A DNA stretch of 46,063 nt from Acidimicrobiaceae bacterium (GTDB lineage: Bacteria; Actinomycetota; Acidimicrobiia; Acidimicrobiales; Ilumatobacteraceae), in the NCBI GenBank assembly GCA_024641005.1, contig JAHEDX010000030.1:1-46063 (forward strand), given 5' to 3'. The notes under the pieces are model-generated. The model was not told the origin of the DNA and did not search any database. It saw only the letters and a list, made by a program, of their open reading frames with translations. Of this stretch, positions 17,126 to 46,063 are shown piece after piece. Made by a program: the position numbers and the translations under genes. How positions within the stretch are numbered: the first letter of the stretch is position 1; every line of letters begins with the position of its first letter.

Positions 17126-17728
17126 TCAGTCGCCGAGATCTCCGAGGTTGTAGTGCCGTCGGCAGAGCAGCTCGTAGCGAACGATGTCGCCGAACATCTT
17201 CTGCGCACCCGGATCGACCGTGTCGCCGACTACGACCGTCTCGCCCTCGTACACGACCATGTCGTTGACGACGCGCGCGTTGTGGGTGGCATGCGAACCA
17301 CACCAACAGCGCGCCTCGACCTGGAGTGCGACCCGCTCGTCGGCGATCTCGAGCATCCGTTTGGTGCCCTCGAAGAGCAACCCCCGGAAGTCGGTGATCA
17401 ACCCGAACGCATAGATGTCGACCTCCATGTCGTCGACGACCTTGGCCAGCTGATCACATTGCTCGACCGTGTAGAACTGCACCTCGTCGCACACGATGTA
17501 GTGCAGGGGCCAGTGGTCGACCGCCAGGGCGTGGATGTCGAGATCGGGCTCGACCTGGATCGCCGGCGCAGCGACGCCCAGCCGGCTGGTGACCTGCATA
17601 CCGTCGCGATCGAGGCGGGTGAGCAGGAGACCGTAGAGGTGGCGTGACGACAGGTTGTGATGGATCTGGAGCGCGAGCGTGCTCTTGCCAGAACCCATCG
17701 TGCCGAAACTGAACCGCAAAGTCGCCAT
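17126..17728 (-). CDS. tdk: Thymidine kinase (type II)
   Basis: Phosphorylates thymidine for dTMP salvage in the cytosol. The 200-residue product has the P-loop GTMGSGKST (residues 9-17), the DEVQF motif with catalytic Glu82, and the lasso-loop region FRGLLFEG. Two cysteine pairs (CWC near 141-143 and a cysteine at 189 with histidines) fit the structural zinc site of this family. A TAAGGT element (17740-17745) lies 11 nt before the ATG, giving at most a very short leader. It lies between two related membrane protein genes on the same strand, with no evident functional link. Confidence 0.93.
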   Translation of the reverse strand: MATLRFSFGTMGSGKSTLALQIHHNLSSRHLYGLLLTRLDRDGMQVTSRLGVAAPAIQVEPDLDIHALAVDHWPLHYIVCDEVQFYTVEQCDQLAKVVDDMEVDIYAFGLITDFRGLLFEGTKRMLEIADERVALQVEARCWCGSHATHNARVVNDMVVYEGETVVVGDTVDPGAQKMFGDIVRYELLCRRHYNLGDLGD

Positions 17729-39395: not shown

Positions 39396-42281
39396 TCAGC
39401 TGCAGCCGCTGGTGCTGCCGCAGCTCGGGCACGCGTGGCAGCTGCCGGCGCGCACCATGTGGACGCCGCACTGCATGCACATCGGAGCGTCGATCGGACG
39501 CTGTGACACGGGCGCCGAACCGGTGATCCCCCTGGCCGGGGTGTTGTCCTCGACCGTCGGCGCCATCGCGCCGCTCTCGAGCGCCGCTGCGAGCTCGTCG
39601 GCCGACGGCACGCTCTTGGGGTCGGGAGCCAGCTCGGAACCCTGGTTGGTCTCGATCACCTGCTCGTCGACACCCGGCAGCGTGGGCTGTGTGCGCTCGG
39701 CGATCGTGAAGATGCCCAACTCTGCGCGCTCGTCGTAGGTCAAGTACTCGAGCGCCAGACGGCGGAACAGATAGTCCATGATCGATCCGGCGAAGCGGAC
39801 ATCGGGATCGTCAGTCATGCCCGCCGGCTCGAACTTCATGTTGACGAACGCCTCGACATAGCCGCGCAGCGGAACGCCGTACTGCAGGCCATAGCTGATC
39901 GACTTGGCGAACGCATCCATGATGCCGGCCATGGTGGAACCCTGCTTGGAGACCGTGAGGAAGATCTCGCCCGGCTGGCCGTTCTCGTATTCGCCGATGG
40001 TGGCAAAGCCCTTGCAGTCCGCGACACGGAACTCGAAGGTGCGAGCTGATCGCGAGCGAGGCAGCTTCTGGCGAATCGGCTTGTGAACGATCTTCTCGAT
40101 GATCTTCTCGACGGTCTGCGTCACGGCGGCCGCCGGGTCGGCACCCTCGCCCATCTTGGCGTCGCCCTTCTTCGCCGTCGACAGCGGTTGGCCGACCTTG
40201 CAGTTGTCACGGTAGATCGCCACCGCCTTCAAGCCGAGCTCCCAGCTGAGCTGATGCAACGCCTCGACCTCTTCGACCGAGGCCTCCTCGGGCATGTTGA
40301 CCGTCTTGGAGATCGCACCCGACAGGAACGGCTGCACCGCGCCCATCATCCGCACATGCCCCTCGTAGTGGATCGTGTTGTCACCCATCGAGCAAGCGAA
40401 CACGGACACGTGATCGGCTGCCAGATGCGGTGCGCCGAGGATCGACTTGTTCTCGTCGATGTAGGCGATGATCTCGTCGACCTGCTGAGCGTCGTAGCCC
40501 AGCCGGCGCAGCGCTCGCGGAATCGTCTGATTGACGATCTGCATCGTGCCGCCACCGACGAGCTTCTTCATCTTCACGAGGCCGAGGTCGGGCTCGATGC
40601 CCGTGGTGTCGCAGTCCATCATCAGACCGATCGTGCCGGTCGGGGCGAGGACCGAAGCCTGACTGTTGCGGATCCCGTGTTCTTGGCCGTCGCGAACCGC
40701 ATCCTCCCATGCGCGCTGCCCCGCAGAGAGCAACTCGTCGGGAACGACGTCGTCGTTGTCGATCTGGTAGCTGGCATCGCGATGCATGGTCAGCACCCGC
40801 AACATGTGCTCTTCGTTGGCGGCAAACCCTTCGAACGGTCCGAGTCGGGCGGCAGTGCGGGCGCTGGTCGCGTAGGCGTGGCCGGTCATCAACGACGTGA
40901 GACTCGCGGCCCACGAGCGACCCTCGGGCGAATCGTACGCATAGCCGAGCGCCATCAGCAGCGCCCCCAGGTTGGCATAGCCGATGCCGAGCTGACGGAA
41001 CTTGCGGCTCGTGTCGCCGATCGGCTCGGTCGGGTAGTCGGCGCGACCGACCAGGATCTCCTGGGCGGTGAAGATCATCTCGATCGTGTGCTGGTAGGCA
41101 TCGACATCGAATGTGTCGTCGCCGTTGTCGGTGTTGAGGTCGAGGTACTTGAGCAGGTTGATCGACGCCAGGTTGCACGCCGAGTTGTCGAGGTGCATGT
41201 ACTCGGAGCACGGGTTCGATCCGTTGATCCGGCCCGTGTTGTGGGCGGTGTGCCACTTGTTGATCGTGGTGTCGAACTGCAGGCCGGGATCGGCACATTC
41301 CCACGATGCCTGGGCGATCTGGCTCCACAGATCACGGGCACGGATCGTCTTGACGACCTCGCCCGTGGTGACCGCCTTGAGACCCCAATCGGCATCGTCG
41401 ACGACCGCCTGCATGAACTCATCGGTGACCCGCACCGAGTTGTTGGCGTTCTGGTACTGGATCGAGAACGAGTCGGTTCCGTCGAGATCCATGTCGAACC
41501 CGGCGTCGCGCAGCACGCGGGCCTTGCGCTCTTCTTTCACCTTGCACCAGATGAACTCTTCGATGTCGGGATGCTCGACGTCGAGGATCACCATCTTGGC
41601 CGCTCGCCGGGTCTTGCCGCCCGACTTGATCGTGCCGGCCGAAGCATCGGCGCCACGCATGAAGCTGACCGGCCCCGATGCGGTGCCGCCACCTTCGAGC
41701 GGCTCGACGCTGGAGCGGATCTTCGACAGGTTGACGCCCGATCCCGAACCGCCCTTGAAGATCACGCCTTCCTCGCGATACCAGTTGAGGATCGAGCTCA
41801 TCTTGTCGTCGACGGACAAGATGAAGCAGGCGCTCGCCTGCTGTGGCACATCCTTGACCCCGATGTTGAACCAGACGGGGCTGTTGAATGCTGCACGCTG
41901 CGTGACGAGGATGTACTTGAGTTCGTCGCTGAACGCCTGTTCCTCGGCCTCGTCGGCGAAATATCCGCCCTCACGACCCCACTGCGTGACCGTGTCGACG
42001 ACGCGGGTGACGACCTGGCGGAGCGAGGTCTCACGCTCTGGCGTGCCGAGTGTTCCGCGGAAGTACTTCTGGGTGACGATGTTGGCGGCGTTGACCGACC
42101 AATCGGCAGGGAACTCGACATCGAGTTGCTCGAACGCGACGCTGCCGTCCTTCCAGTTCGTGATGCGAGCATCCCGGCGCTCCCACACGACCTCGTCGAA
42201 CGGGTCGACACCCGGCGACGTGAAGAGTCGACCGAGTCCGATTCGACCAGTGGCGGTCAGTCGTTCAGGCGCCAGAGACAT
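39396..42281 (-). CDS. nrdJ: Class II (adenosylcobalamin-dependent) ribonucleoside-diphosphate reductase
   Basis: Reduces ribonucleotides to deoxyribonucleotides with an adenosylcobalamin radical, independent of oxygen. The 961-residue chain has first redox cysteine C152 (ASACFIL), the active-site motif NPCSE (N356, thiyl C358, E360) and the second redox cysteine C369 in CNLASINL, 11 residues on as in the Thermotoga enzyme. The C-terminus is a zinc-ribbon-like, cysteine-rich tail (CMQCG, CHACPSCG) that probably shuttles disulfides. The ATG at 42281 follows GGAAGGA. The promoter lies at 42414-42443, with two NrdR-type boxes between it and the gene. Confidence 0.95.
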   Translation of the reverse strand: MSLAPERLTATGRIGLGRLFTSPGVDPFDEVVWERRDARITNWKDGSVAFEQLDVEFPADWSVNAANIVTQKYFRGTLGTPERETSLRQVVTRVVDTVTQWGREGGYFADEAEEQAFSDELKYILVTQRAAFNSPVWFNIGVKDVPQQASACFILSVDDKMSSILNWYREEGVIFKGGSGSGVNLSKIRSSVEPLEGGGTASGPVSFMRGADASAGTIKSGGKTRRAAKMVILDVEHPDIEEFIWCKVKEERKARVLRDAGFDMDLDGTDSFSIQYQNANNSVRVTDEFMQAVVDDADWGLKAVTTGEVVKTIRARDLWSQIAQASWECADPGLQFDTTINKWHTAHNTGRINGSNPCSEYMHLDNSACNLASINLLKYLDLNTDNGDDTFDVDAYQHTIEMIFTAQEILVGRADYPTEPIGDTSRKFRQLGIGYANLGALLMALGYAYDSPEGRSWAASLTSLMTGHAYATSARTAARLGPFEGFAANEEHMLRVLTMHRDASYQIDNDDVVPDELLSAGQRAWEDAVRDGQEHGIRNSQASVLAPTGTIGLMMDCDTTGIEPDLGLVKMKKLVGGGTMQIVNQTIPRALRRLGYDAQQVDEIIAYIDENKSILGAPHLAADHVSVFACSMGDNTIHYEGHVRMMGAVQPFLSGAISKTVNMPEEASVEEVEALHQLSWELGLKAVAIYRDNCKVGQPLSTAKKGDAKMGEGADPAAAVTQTVEKIIEKIVHKPIRQKLPRSRSARTFEFRVADCKGFATIGEYENGQPGEIFLTVSKQGSTMAGIMDAFAKSISYGLQYGVPLRGYVEAFVNMKFEPAGMTDDPDVRFAGSIMDYLFRRLALEYLTYDERAELGIFTIAERTQPTLPGVDEQVIETNQGSELAPDPKSVPSADELAAALESGAMAPTVEDNTPARGITGSAPVSQRPIDAPMCMQCGVHMVRAGSCHACPSCGSTSGCS

Positions 42282-42337
42282 ATGTGTTCCTTCCAGATGA
42301 TCGAGCAGTAGTCGCCGGTGCCAGTAGGTCGACACCA

Positions 42338-42395
42338 ACACAAGATGTTGTTGGGGTTTCCCCCGTACCCGCCGTCGAACCACAACAAGTTGTGT
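42338..42395 (-). promoter_or_regulatory. Pair of NrdR-like boxes upstream of nrdJ
   Basis: Written on the plus strand, box 1 is ACACAAGATGTTGTTG (42338-42353) and box 2 CCACAACAAGTTGTGT (42380-42395). Both fit the NrdR consensus acaCwAtATaTwGtgt at about 12 of 16 positions. Their 42-bp separation equals four helical turns. Both lie downstream of the predicted start site, so bound NrdR would block elongation or promoter escape. Confidence 0.65.
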
Positions 42396-42770: not shown

Positions 42771-43469
42771 ATGAAGCCTGCTCTGCGTCGTCTGCTGCCC
42801 TCGCCGGCAACCGCCATCACCGTCTCGGAGGCCTACGACGTGCAGCGCCGGCCACGCGTCGACCGGCCCTGGATCGGCTTGTGCATGGTCGCGAGTCTCG
42901 ACGGATCGGTGTCGGTCGACGGCACATCCGGCGGGTTGGGCAATGCCAACGATCTCGAGGTGCTGCTCACCTTGCGCGAGCTGGCCGACATCGTGCTGGT
43001 CGGGGCCGGCACCGCGCGCGGCGAGGGCTATGGCCCACCTCGCACACCGGGCAAACGAATCGGCGTCGTCACCAACAGCGGCGGCGTCGATCTCGAGACC
43101 GATCTGTTCGCCTCGGGCAGCGGATTCCTGATCGCGCCCCGGACGGCCGATATCGATGAGACCCGGGTACAGGTGATCCGCGCCGGCGACGATCGCGTCG
43201 ATCTCGCGGCCGGCGTCGCCCGCCTCCACGAGGTGTGTGCATCGGTGCAGTACGTCCAGGCGGAAGGTGGTCCCCGCCTGAACGGTGCGCTGCTCACAGC
43301 CGACCTGATCGACGAACTCGATCTCACGTGGTCACCTCGGCTGGTCGGTGGGTACGGACCACGCCTCACGACCGGGGCAGCAGAGACAGATCGTTCATTC
43401 GAGCTCGCCCATCTGCTCGCCGACGATGACGGCTTCGTGTTCAGCCGCTGGGTTCGGCGAGCTTGCTGA
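42771..43469 (+). CDS. RibD C-terminal-domain reductase (pyrimidine/dihydrofolate reductase-like)
   Basis: A 232-residue protein with the RibD_C fold used by the riboflavin pathway reductase and by stand-alone NADPH reductases. Segments are WIGLCMVASLDGSVSVDGTS, the NADPH-binding strand IVLVGAGTARGEGYGPP, and EGGPRLNGALLTADLIDEL with the family's EGGP. There is no deaminase domain, so it is not complete RibD; dihydrofolate reductase-like or another small-molecule reductase activity is possible. ATG 42771 (or the adjacent GTG 42768) gives the natural N-terminus. Its last 29 nt overlap the convergent nrdR. Confidence 0.8.
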   Translation: MKPALRRLLPSPATAITVSEAYDVQRRPRVDRPWIGLCMVASLDGSVSVDGTSGGLGNANDLEVLLTLRELADIVLVGAGTARGEGYGPPRTPGKRIGVVTNSGGVDLETDLFASGSGFLIAPRTADIDETRVQVIRAGDDRVDLAAGVARLHEVCASVQYVQAEGGPRLNGALLTADLIDELDLTWSPRLVGGYGPRLTTGAAETDRSFELAHLLADDDGFVFSRWVRRAC

Positions 43470-43905
43470 GCAGTTCGAGTTCGCTCTGGAAGTCGGCGGC
43501 CGCATCGAAGTTCTTGTACACCGACGCGAACCGGAGATACGCGACCTCGTCCAACACCCTGAGGCGGTCGAGCACGCTCAAGCCGATCTGACTGGTGGTG
43601 ACCTCTCCTCCGAGCAGGCGCATCTCGTCCTCGACGGCGGTGGCGAGATGCTCGACCTCGGCGGCGGTAACAGAGCGGCCCTTGGTCGCCGCCAGGACAC
43701 CGAACACGATCTTGTCGCGATCGAACGCCCGATGACTGCCGTCGGACTTCACCACCACCAGCGGCACCTCCTCGACACGCTCGAACGTGGTGAAACGGTA
43801 CGAACAGGTGAGGCATTGGCGACGCCGACGGATCGACACGCCCTCTTCTGCAAGGCGCGAATCGACGACCTTGGTGTCGTCGGCGTGGCAGCTCGGGCAG
43901 AACAC
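43441..43905 (-). CDS. nrdR: Transcriptional repressor NrdR
   Basis: ATP/dATP-sensing repressor of ribonucleotide reductase genes. The 154-residue product has the N-terminal zinc ribbon (C3, C6, C31, C34: CPSCH and CLTC with VVDSRLAEEGVSIRRRRQ between) and the ATP-cone domain (VVVKSDGSHRAFDRDKIVFG, VLDEVAYLRFASVYKNF). Length is exactly that of the family. The GTG at 43905 is placed by homology and by TATCCT 6 nt upstream (leaderless). It lies next to the LysM and lexA genes as in other actinobacteria, and its own targets are probably the boxes at 42338-42395. Confidence 0.95.
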   Translation of the reverse strand: MFCPSCHADDTKVVDSRLAEEGVSIRRRRQCLTCSYRFTTFERVEEVPLVVVKSDGSHRAFDRDKIVFGVLAATKGRSVTAAEVEHLATAVEDEMRLLGGEVTTSQIGLSVLDRLRVLDEVAYLRFASVYKNFDAAADFQSELELLSKLAEPSG

Positions 43906-43917: not shown

Positions 43918-43958
43918 CTGACGGCGCAGACCGACATGCGTCGATGACGCACCGATGC

Positions 43959-44348
43959 TCAGGGCAGAACGACGGCCTGCCCGGCGACGATCGACGCTCC
44001 GCCGTTGAGATCGACCAGCTTGTCGACGTAACGGGTGATCGACACCGTGCCGTGGCGGGCCTCGGCGATCGACCACAGGGTGTCACCGGGCTGCGCCGTG
44101 ACCGATATCCGTGTGAGTGCCGGCTGGCTCGCAGCGGCGGAGGCAGGTTCGCCGCCCGAGCCGGCCAGCACATCATGGGCCAGCACCGAGCCCACCGCGA
44201 CCAACACGGCGAGCATGGTGCCGACGATCGCTCGCCGACGCCGGTAGGTGGCCTCGGAGACGACTCTGGGGGATGCGTGCCGCACATCGGGCACCCGTCG
44301 GACCGGCTGTCGGCGGGTTGACGGCGTGAAGGAAATGGTGGCACTCAT
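43959..44348 (-). CDS. LysM-domain membrane protein, probable SOS-induced cell-division inhibitor
   Basis: A 129-residue protein with a basic cytoplasmic N-terminus (to about 40), one membrane helix (IVGTMLAVLVAVGSVLAHD) and an extracytoplasmic LysM domain at the C-terminus (ISVTAQPGDTLWSIAEARHG, then VDKLVDLNGGASIVAGQAVVLP). It diverges from lexA and precedes nrdR, exactly the placement of Rv2719c in Mycobacterium and functionally of YneA/DivS-type proteins that delay division during the SOS response. The function is inferred from position, architecture and the LexA-like boxes. ATG 44348 follows GGGAG. Confidence 0.78.
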   Translation of the reverse strand: MSATISFTPSTRRQPVRRVPDVRHASPRVVSEATYRRRRAIVGTMLAVLVAVGSVLAHDVLAGSGGEPASAAASQPALTRISVTAQPGDTLWSIAEARHGTVSITRYVDKLVDLNGGASIVAGQAVVLP

Positions 44349-44421
44349 GTCGACGGACTCCCAACTGAGCATCGAGGTGGACGGCAGCTGTTCGATTCGG
44401 ACTCTCGATCGGAGTTCGTAT

Positions 44422-44547
44422 CGAACAGTTGTACGGGAGAACATTTGTACCCGAACAATCGTTCGATGTCAACTCTGAATCGAACAAATGTTTGCGAACA
44501 GGTGTTGCCCGAACAGATGTTTGACTCGCGGGTCGAACGCCCGTACG
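44422..44547. promoter_or_regulatory. Cluster of seven LexA (SOS) box-like sequences
   Basis: Seven 14-mers of the type CGAACannTGTTCG: 44422 CGAACAGTTGTACG, 44438 AGAACATTTGTACC, 44452 CGAACAATCGTTCG, 44481 CGAACAAATGTTTG, 44495 CGAACAGGTGTTGC, 44510 CGAACAGATGTTTG and 44534 CGAACGCCCGTACG. The third, fourth and sixth are strongest. Boxes 2-3 cover the LysM-gene promoter and 6-7 the lexA promoter. Confidence 0.85.
44444..44472 (-). promoter_or_regulatory. Promoter of the LysM gene
   Basis: On the minus strand TTGACA (44472-44467), a 17-nt spacer and TACAAA (44449-44444). LexA-like box 3 lies inside the spacer and box 2 covers the -10. Confidence 0.55.
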
Positions 44548-44549
44548 AT
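44521..44549 (+). promoter_or_regulatory. lexA promoter (leaderless)
   Basis: TTGACT (44521-44526), a 17-nt spacer and TACGAT (44544-44549), 6 nt before the ATG. LexA-like boxes overlap the -35 (44510-44523) and the -10 (44534-44547). Confidence 0.65.
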
Positions 44550-44555
44550 GGGGGC

Positions 44556-45188
44556 ATGGCCGACAAGCAGATCAGCAAGCGACAGCGCGAGATCCTCGAC
44601 TTCATCGAGTCCGAGATGCGTGATCACGGTTACCCGCCGTCGGTGCGCGAGATCGGCGAGGCGGTCGGACTGACCTCTCCATCCACAGTGCACAGTCATC
44701 TCAACACGCTCACCCGACTGGGCTACCTGCGGCGCGACCCCACCAAGCCCCGCGCGATCGAGGTTCGGTGGGATCCGAACTCCGGCGTCGTGATGGAGCG
44801 TCGCCCCGTGCGACACGTTCCGCTGGTCGGCGATGTCGCCGCCGGTACCGACGTGCTCGCGCAGGAAAACGTCGAGGAGCTGTTCCCCGTTCCGAGCGAT
44901 TTCACCGGTGACGGCGACCTGTTCATGTTGCGCGTTCGCGGCGACTCGATGATCGGCCTCGGCATTCTCGACGGCGATTTCGTCATCGCCGTCCAGCAGG
45001 CCACCGCCAAGCACGGCGACGTCGTGGTCGCCGGCATCCCCGGCGAAGAGGCGACCGTCAAGACGTTCAACACCAAGGGCGATCGCGTCGTGCTGATCCC
45101 GGCCAATCCCGACATGGAGCCGCTCGAGTTCCCCGCCGACGACGTCACCATCTACGGCAGGGTCGTCACCGTGATGCGACGCCTCTGA
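44556..45188 (+). CDS. lexA: LexA repressor, SOS response regulator
   Basis: Dimeric repressor that cleaves itself when RecA is activated by DNA damage. The 210-residue product has the N-terminal winged helix-turn-helix (YPPSVREIGEAVGLTSPSTV, residues 26-45), the Ala96-Gly97 cleavage site in GDVAAGTDV, catalytic Ser131 (RGDSMIGLGI) and Lys169 (EATVKTF). All autoproteolysis residues are intact. An in-frame ATG lies upstream at 44445, but it is inside the operator array. ATG 44556 gives the conserved N-terminus and is 6 nt from the -10. Control is presumably autoregulatory through the box cluster. Confidence 0.97.
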   Translation: MADKQISKRQREILDFIESEMRDHGYPPSVREIGEAVGLTSPSTVHSHLNTLTRLGYLRRDPTKPRAIEVRWDPNSGVVMERRPVRHVPLVGDVAAGTDVLAQENVEELFPVPSDFTGDGDLFMLRVRGDSMIGLGILDGDFVIAVQQATAKHGDVVVAGIPGEEATVKTFNTKGDRVVLIPANPDMEPLEFPADDVTIYGRVVTVMRRL

Positions 45189-45209
45189 TCAACGGCGCCT
45201 CACAACACC

Positions 45210-46063
45210 TCAGCCGGGCGAAGGATCCGCTTCGTCCTCGGCAGTGTCGACCGAACCGATGTCCGCCACGGTGATCTCGTCGGATGCCTCCGGCTGCTCT
45301 GGCCGTCGCTCCGACACAGCCTCGTCCGACAGCTGCGGATCGGGTTCCGGGGCCGAAGTGTGATCGCCATCGGCCGAACGCTCGTCGGGCGTGGCCCTCG
45401 TTACGTCATCGCTCGGCACGGGCTCGGGGCCGCTCATCGGTGTACCCGAAGCGCCAGGTGGCGCCCAGGGCGATGGAGGCCGGGCGGCGATCTCGGCCAA
45501 CTCGTCCAATGTCGGCGCGATCGCGACCGGCTCCGGCGGGGTGTGGGGGTTTACTGGCACCTGGCCAGACCGGGTGTCGGTGGGCACACCGGCCGGATCG
45601 GCGGGTGTCGGCTGTGGCCCCCATCCTGGCCCGGCGGGTGGCAGGAACGCGGCGGCCTTCTTCGATCGCCGACCTGCCAACACCAGCAGGAGTGCACCCA
45701 GGACGACGCCGACGACCGCCACGATCACCGAGCGCCGGCGAAGCAGATCGACGCCGTCGTCGGGATCACGTCCGATCGCCGCCACGACAGCCGGATCGTC
45801 GCCCACGACGACGATCTCGTACTCCCCTGCGGTGACGATCTCGATCCTGGCGACCGACGAACCGACCTGATCACCGGTGTCGTACGAGACCGATACGTCG
45901 GCACGCGGCACGACCGGTCCATCCGGCCCTCGCAGCTGGAACGCGAACGCCTGGGTCGGGTCGGCGGTCGGCTGGCATCCGCCGTCGGGCACCTCGCTCA
46001 CCCCGGCGAGCTCCTCGAAGACGTAGAACACGCCGGTCTCGGTGAAATCGAGCGTCGTGGTGC
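45210..46063 (-). CDS. Single-pass membrane protein with proline-rich C-terminal tail, N-terminus cut by window edge
   Basis: The frame is open to the right edge, so the N-terminus is missing; about 284 residues are visible. An extracytoplasmic beta-rich region (TETGVFYVFEELAG, then a GGCQP motif and FQLRGPDGPVV) is followed by one membrane helix (SVIVAVVGVVLGALLLVLAG). A 150-residue cytoplasmic tail rich in Pro, Glu, Asp and Ser follows, ending near DEADPSPG. I do not recognise a family. The tail suggests a flexible scaffold; no enzymatic motif is seen. It converges on lexA, 21 nt from its stop, with no terminator between. Confidence 0.6.
   Translation of the reverse strand, partial: TTTLDFTETGVFYVFEELAGVSEVPDGGCQPTADPTQAFAFQLRGPDGPVVPRADVSVSYDTGDQVGSSVARIEIVTAGEYEIVVVGDDPAVVAAIGRDPDDGVDLLRRRSVIVAVVGVVLGALLLVLAGRRSKKAAAFLPPAGPGWGPQPTPADPAGVPTDTRSGQVPVNPHTPPEPVAIAPTLDELAEIAARPPSPWAPPGASGTPMSGPEPVPSDDVTRATPDERSADGDHTSAPEPDPQLSDEAVSERRPEQPEASDEITVADIGSVDTAEDEADPSPG

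Follow-up and report, generated by a model that had tools for sequence, protein, structure and literature searches.

The right end of the window, a term used here for the whole stretch of 46,063 nucleotides analysed, carries in this order nrdR and a small LysM gene, both on the minus strand, and lexA on the plus strand. Seven 14-bp boxes of the type CGAAC-N4-GTTYG are located between lexA and the divergent LysM gene. The features of this region are as follows (bit scores of the boxes refer to the matrix described below):

43441 to 43905, minus strand: nrdR (TIGR00244, 164.3 bits for a cut-off of 124.65; the model alignment suggests a GTG start at 43905)
43959 to 44348, minus strand: small LysM gene, divergent from lexA (Pfam LysM, 22.2 bits for a cut-off of 20.9)
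44422 to 44435, plus strand: LexA box 1, CGAACAGTTGTACG, 18.8 bits; outermost box in 9/9 same-genus promoters
44438 to 44451, plus strand: LexA box 2, AGAACATTTGTACC, over the LysM -10, 13.1 bits; second box in 9/9 genus promoters (12.7-15.9 bits)
44444 to 44449, minus strand: plausible -10 of the LysM gene, TACAAA, 17-bp spacer; read by eye in the sequence, absent from the list of the consensus scan
44452 to 44465, plus strand: LexA box 3, CGAACAATCGTTCG, between the LysM -35 and -10, 20.3 bits; third box in 9/9 genus promoters
44467 to 44472, minus strand: plausible -35 of the LysM gene, TTGACA; read by eye in the sequence
44481 to 44494, plus strand: LexA box 4, CGAACAAATGTTTG, between the -35 elements of the two genes, 20.7 bits; a box at 29-30 bp from box 3 in 9/9 genus promoters (11.3-20.7 bits)
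44495 to 44508, plus strand: LexA box 5, CGAACAGGTGTTGC, upstream of the lexA -35, 13.0 bits (the weakest); position varies in the genus
44510 to 44523, plus strand: LexA box 6, CGAACAGATGTTTG, merging at its end with the lexA -35 (GTTTGAC), 20.5 bits
44521 to 44526, plus strand: lexA -35, TTGACT (promoter consensus scan)
44534 to 44547, plus strand: LexA box 7, CGAACGCCCGTACG, merging at its end with the lexA -10 (GTACGAT), 15.1 bits
44544 to 44549, plus strand: lexA -10, TACGAT, 17-bp spacer, 6 nt before the ATG at 44556 (promoter consensus scan)
44556 to 45188, plus strand: lexA, SOS repressor of 210 aa (TIGR00498, 225.9 bits for a cut-off of 110.95; Pfam LexA_DNA_bind and Peptidase_S24)

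Judged by its family matches, the product of lexA is with certainty a LexA. It combines the DNA-binding domain and the S24 peptidase of the family, and it contains the motifs AAG, GDSM and ATVK, which we take to be the Ala-Gly cleavage site and the Ser/Lys pair of self-cleaving LexA. The LysM protein, whose LysM domain is C-terminal, exceeds the Pfam cut-off only narrowly, and it does not pass the curated YneA model NF010723 (24 bits for a cut-off of 60). It is a probable SOS cell-division suppressor, the likeness to YneA and ChiZ being one of position only. The start of its gene at 44348 was inferred from a GGGAG located 9 nt upstream, an arrangement also encountered in other loci (e.g. L018 and L020). 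A simple LysM signature was detected on the strand divergent from lexA in 8 of the 9 loci of the genus and in 18 of the 25 loci of the family. The LysM gene and nrdR probably form one operon; nrdR is presumably also the next gene in the mycobacterial lexA-Rv2719c region. A gene for a B12-dependent ribonucleotide reductase (39396-42383, minus strand; NF005122, 1428 bits) is found close to nrdR, separated from it by one RibD_C-type reductase gene, and is a possible target of NrdR.

The boxes were scored with a palindromic matrix of 14 bp, built from 515 sites of the lexA upstream regions of the family, the order and the named relatives, the training set comprising neither the genus of the window nor the locus L099. 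Outside promoters, this matrix yields 19 matches of at least 11 bits in 415,239 positions. A preliminary description of this DNA had reported seven CGAAC-type 14-mers in about 125 bp, and had proposed to test whether all of them score above background. The seven boxes are confirmed and all score above background: the array spans 126 bp (44422-44547), its boxes score from 13.0 to 20.7 bits and, among the 10 positions of at least 10 bits in the window, those of at least 13 bits are exactly these seven. In 2000 dinucleotide shuffles of the region 44377-44556, the highest count was one position at 13 bits or more and two at 10 bits or more. Boxes 2 and 5 are the weakest, the other five scoring 15.1-20.7 bits. 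The boxes start at 44422, 44438, 44452, 44481, 44495, 44510 and 44534, hence steps of 16, 14, 29, 14, 15 and 24 bp. A plain consensus search was too unspecific (90 matches with up to two mismatches in the window vs 44.4 expected) and was replaced by the matrix, so that the matrix and the conservation carry the case for the boxes. The array agrees with a Gram-positive-type LexA box, a CGAACRNRYGTTYC/G palindrome at the core promoter, as seven boxes are present and two of them are fused to the lexA -35 and -10; CGAACRNRYGTTYC is given as the Gram-positive LexA box consensus in a passage of PMC2248561. The probable leader of the LysM gene contains a half box, CGAACAGCTGCC (44384-44397, minus strand), with a score below 4 bits; this half box was left out of the box count.

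The conservation of the array was examined in relatives. LexA was detected in 54 of 61 genomes (own genome included); two weak matches out of 57 (E-values 6e-4 and 7e-4) were dropped and 55 loci were kept. From a sample of the phylum, where LexA is present in at least 238 of 246 cases, 22 new loci (two repeats) were taken, and 80 further stretches of the phylum were hand-picked to spread over families. A named set consisted of the best 80 of 118 records labelled Ilumatobacter sp., Ilumatobacteraceae, Acidimicrobiales, Acidimicrobiia or Actinomycetota. After removal of 17 identical loci and one short locus from a total of 237, 219 loci were analysed.

With a threshold of 10 bits, all nine promoters of the genus contain 6 to 8 boxes (median 7). 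The number is 3 to 6 in the other members of the family (median 5, n = 25), 1 to 5 in the order (median 4, n = 29, with four boxes in 17 of 29) and 1 to 4 in the class (median 3, n = 5). In the named set, which may contain further members of the genus and of the family, it is 1 to 6 (median 4, n = 64). In the rest of the phylum, outside the class, it is 0 to 5 (median 3, n = 87), a count that may be somewhat low in other classes as the matrix is class-derived. Six or more boxes are present in 9/9 promoters of the genus, 10/25 of the family and 8/64 of the named set, against 0/29 in the order, 0/5 in the class and 0/87 in the rest of the phylum. The genus keeps the highest box count at all thresholds from 8 to 14 bits. 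The number of boxes is therefore unusually high, as the preliminary description had suggested, and the array is kept in relatives, where that description had named one or two scoring or conserved sites as the contrary outcome.

Alternatively, part of the boxes could have arisen by chance or be degenerating copies, with no more than four or five of the seven in use. The low scores of boxes 2 and 5 are consistent with it, as are the replacement or shift of box 5 in several members of the genus and the fall of the genus median to 6 at a threshold of 14 bits, where six or more boxes are still found in the genus only (6/9). However, box 2 keeps its place in the nine promoters of the genus, and the background of the matrix given above also speaks against it; we regard this explanation as unlikely. 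The nearest relative among the best 80 of the 118 named records is an uncultured Ilumatobacter whose LexA is 90% identical. Between the genome of the window and its nearest relative, 88 of 98 bases are identical in the boxes and 24 of 36 outside them.

Concerning the promoters, the description had read both core promoters beneath the boxes. The lexA promoter TTGACT-17-TACGAT (44521-44549) is the sole promoter-like match of the consensus scan in 44300-44620. The LysM promoter TTGACA-17-TACAAA (44472-44444) can also be read in the sequence and is plausible, but it was not listed by the scan, because the scan accepts only second hexamers ending in T. The complement of the LysM -35, GTCAA, is present within 185 bp upstream of lexA in 9/9 promoters of the genus and 22/25 of the family. 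Box 1 lies on the downstream side of the LysM promoter, at about its expected transcription start. On the lexA side, GTTTG followed by A or C is present in the last 95 bp before the gene in all 34 promoters of the genus and the family, and the fusion of box 7 with the -10, CGAACN4(G/A)TACG(A/C/G)T, in 30 of them. In all 34 promoters, only 6-7 nt separate the end of a TANNNT hexamer from an in-frame ATG, which leaves no room for a ribosome-binding site. The lexA transcript is thus very probably leaderless in the Ilumatobacteraceae, in agreement with the earlier proposal of a leaderless lexA with one box on its -10. A stricter pattern, which also requires the GTTTG -35, retrieves the pair in 33/34 promoters (L024 being the exception) and shows in six promoters another start-like codon that overlaps the -10 or directly adjoins it. 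In the order-level relative L040, the last box is located farther out, before AGGAGG.

The steps between neighbouring boxes were counted over 455 pairs from 132 promoters of Acidimicrobiia. The step of 15 bp was found 109 times, 14 bp 25 times, 16 bp six times and the steps of 17-22 bp together five times, numbers that are weakened by the shared ancestry of the promoters, which makes the counts dependent. The 14-16 bp steps amount to 31% of the neighbouring pairs vs 16% when boxes are placed at random; for the 17-22 bp steps, random placement within the same spans gives 110 on average and never fewer than 88. The excess of 14-16 bp steps is marked in the genus (30/53, 10.5 expected) and in the family (33/102, 13.1 expected), little in the order and the class (8/79 vs 6.3 expected), and no excess was detected in the rest of the phylum (7/119 vs 7.8 expected). 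The tight step is thus a feature of the genus and the family, and of part of the named set. The gap at 17-22 bp, in contrast, is shared by the rest of the phylum (4/119 vs 14.9 expected). The pairs at 14-16 bp occur at various distances from the lexA -35 box, and a box is present 14-16 bp upstream of this -35 box in 44 of the 132 promoters (27 of the 132 have no -35 box to measure from). The base between neighbours at 15 bp is not strongly biased (A 38, T 26, C 24, G 21). On a quick tree, in which 46 of 128 inner branches are weak and gain is indistinguishable from loss, at least 16 changes are required to account for the distribution of 14-16 bp pairs, at least 12 for that of promoters with six or more boxes and at least three for that of promoters with seven or more.

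That neighbouring dimers would lie on different helix faces follows from the arithmetic of abutting 14-bp boxes. A fixed helical phase between boxes was rejected, as the prevalent steps (15, 24 and 29-30 bp) do not fall in one phase. A steric ban on neighbours on the same face (21 bp), as a general rule for LexA, was also rejected, as the two boxes of E. coli lexA are 21 bp apart. The E. coli lexA double operator resembles the present array by its autoregulation through more than one box and differs from it by this step, which is almost unused in the promoters of Acidimicrobiia. The sequence used as query for it, which we take to be the E. coli lexA operator, has a match in 5365 out of 5426 E. 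coli genomes. For E. coli uvrB, four LexA sites are reported in an excerpt of PMC6015884.

The position of the boxes is compatible with a simple division of labour, in which boxes 6-7 would serve lexA and boxes 1-4 the LysM-nrdR operon, the dimers being independent and the closeness reflecting a short intergenic region. Boxes 6-7 and boxes 1-3 indeed each sit on one promoter, and the 24-bp step is set by the distance between the -35 and the -10 of lexA. In M. tuberculosis, according to a passage of PMC8151990, a sole box serves lexA while the other three and a PafBC site serve the divergent operon. The 15-bp step has no such explanation in the geometry of the promoter. Against this division of labour, boxes 4 and 5 lie off both core promoters although, as seen above, a box recurs 14-16 bp upstream of the lexA -35 box (44/132), and the 14-16 bp steps exceed their share under random placement (31% vs 16%). 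We consider this explanation a real possibility, if somewhat short of an even chance.

The same box was searched in the rest of the genome. For the exact pattern CGAACN4GTTYG, 38 matches were counted in forward and 36 in reverse orientation (most sites being counted twice) vs 3 and 5 for the reversed control. Sixteen stretches were picked by hand, around 14 other CGAAC-R-NN-Y-GTTCG sites and two near variants (L269 overlaps L265), and five of them lead to classical SOS genes:

recA, two boxes upstream (572.7 bits, cut-off 325.3)
error-prone polymerase of the dnaE2 type, box upstream (706 bits, below the cut-off of 939; frame truncated at the stretch boundary)
imuA', box upstream (106.7 bits, cut-off 65)
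dinB, box upstream (625.7 bits, cut-off 367)
uvrB, box upstream (1012 bits, cut-off 750)

From the genes that follow it, the box is identified as the SOS operator of this genome. With a loose pattern, seven adjoining box pairs (step of 14-17 bp) were counted in the genome, four of them in the lexA-LysM array. The boxes, their conservation, the promoter elements embedded in them and the presence of the same box at other SOS genes were all computed here.

Repression of the SOS genes by LexA and their release through RecA are established. For LexA binding, the simultaneous occupancy of the boxes, the timing and the role of the LysM protein, we infer the following working. It is highly likely that the region is under autoregulated SOS control, LexA blocking the lexA and LysM-nrdR promoters from up to seven tiled operators and the extra boxes raising its occupancy. 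LexA dimers would fill these operators and shut two back-to-back promoters, that of lexA through boxes 6 and 7 on its -35 and -10, and that of the LysM-nrdR operon through boxes 2 and 3 (-10 and spacer) and box 1 (start). Upon DNA damage, activated RecA would trigger the self-cleavage of LexA and both promoters would open; the LysM protein would then restrain division and fresh LexA would reset the system. The extra abutting boxes would most likely raise the local occupancy by LexA, and at this higher occupancy the division brake would stay off until a strong and lasting loss of LexA.

A stronger version would be that the LexA of Ilumatobacteraceae works as a tiled array, the 15-bp step packing dimers on nearly opposite faces and coating the intergenic region, so that the switch opens only after a deep loss of LexA. 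If so, this packing rule would leave its mark in the almost complete lack of 17-22 bp steps. We consider this version distinctly improbable. The cooperative or graded repression suggested in the preliminary description found no support here, and published results suggest caution before reading cooperativity into the number of boxes. When three SOS boxes were added to the E. coli lexA promoter, the Hill coefficient passed from 1.5 +/- 0.2 to 1.2 +/- 0.2, a small drop and a result that the authors call surprising (PMC5152588). According to an excerpt of PMC4551915, Bacillus LexA bound two adjoining sites, one of them a half-site, without cooperativity and perhaps not simultaneously, and the expected footprint of its dimer is 18-20 bp. 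As this footprint is larger than the steps of 14-16 bp, neighbouring dimers may exclude each other. The abutting boxes could then be mutually exclusive registers, that is alternative landing places favouring statistical rebinding with no filament. The absence of a doubly bound complex at these Bacillus sites in the same excerpt and the Hill coefficient that was not raised in E. coli point in this direction. On the other hand, both tandem LexA boxes of phage GIL01 P3 are reported as protected in a passage of PMC6182141, and the recurrence of a fixed 15-bp step in several places is unexpected under mutual exclusion; exclusive registers appear somewhat unlikely. Autoregulated control with raised occupancy remains the reading that we prefer.

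The layout is the known lexA-yneA/chiZ divergon. Passages of PMC3989709 and PMC6851548 describe lexA beside a LysM-type division inhibitor as a known Gram-positive arrangement, and the LysM proteins beside lexA (YneA and ChiZ) as restraining division. In M. tuberculosis lexA-Rv2719c (chiZ), the neighbour of lexA is likewise a LysM protein, induced by damage and restraining division (excerpt of PMC3989709), and several SOS boxes serve both sides (passage of PMC8151990), so such a pair with multiple boxes had already been described there. By the same passage, M. tuberculosis has four boxes and a PafBC site, whereas seven boxes tiled at 14-16 bp and no PafBC site were found here; the divergent operon is printed as Rv2019c-Rv2017c in this passage and as rv2719c operon in the title of the supplement. 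A second damage regulator, PafBC, could share the region as it does beside lexA in M. tuberculosis, where it acts on the rv2719c operon (PMC8151990, same passage). Yet no PafBC-like motif (up to two mismatches to the pattern assumed here) was detected in 43937-46063, and the 9 matches in the whole window are at chance level (9.3 expected), which makes this co-control very improbable. The sole exact match, at 17728, was taken as chance: it overlaps the start of a minus-strand ORF, and no plus-strand ORF of at least 120 aa starts within 350 bp after it.

An SOS-controlled division inhibitor is also co-located with lexA in B. subtilis (lexA, or dinR, and yneA) and in S. aureus (lexA-sosA, sosA being divergent), according to a passage of PMC6851548; in the lexA promoters of Firmicutes, however, the motif has one to three occurrences in the excerpt of PMC2248561. 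C. glutamicum lexA-divS similarly has an SOS-induced division suppressor near lexA (excerpt of PMC3989709), but DivS is described as devoid of a LysM domain in a passage of PMC6851548. Data on LexA binding or expression for Ilumatobacter or the Acidimicrobiia clade were not found in the open-licence literature, where Ilumatobacter together with LexA led to a community survey only, and where the Acidimicrobiales paper among those listed gives LexA simply as one of the genes present (PMC10205998).

The observation is thus real and conserved, and concerns an ordinary system with an unusual number and packing of boxes; what is new, with respect to the open-licence literature covered, is the tiling of seven boxes, their step of 15 bp and the almost complete lack of 17-22 bp steps (5/455). 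Multi-box SOS promoters provide material on how the numbers of repressors and of operators set the order and the depth of the SOS response. They form here a natural series, from three to eight boxes in one family vs none to five elsewhere in the phylum. Together with the embedded promoter elements and the recurring 15-bp step, this series allows extra operators to be tested for cooperativity, for a tighter shut-off of the division inhibitor or for redundancy.

Among the sixteen stretches, two carry genes for DUF222 proteins, and in one of these proteins an HNH domain also exceeds its cut-off; apart from the five SOS genes, the others gave weak matches or no assignment. Strong boxes are located before or at the start of genes for DUF222 proteins and/or HNH endonucleases at L255:2001 (DUF222, 34.8 bits), L257:2001 (DUF222, 62.5 bits, and HNH, 24.9 bits), L258:2001 and L260:2001, the last two with weak HNH-type matches only, below the cut-off. 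Perfect CGAACATATGTTCG palindromes are present at L262:2001 and L266:2001, beside frames devoid of family match in NCBIfam or Pfam (L262:2066-2596 and L266:80-1987) or in Pfam, the only collection searched for them (L262:1461-1916 and L266:1893-2345). A third perfect CGAACATATGTTCG palindrome, at L256:2001, is separated by 382 bp from a frame that gives matches of the histidine-phosphatase type under their cut-offs. Finally, a gene divergent from recA (L254:1951-2619) encodes a protein with sigma-70 region 4 (Sigma70_r4_2, 51.3 bits), and both LexA boxes of recA are included in its longest reading frame.
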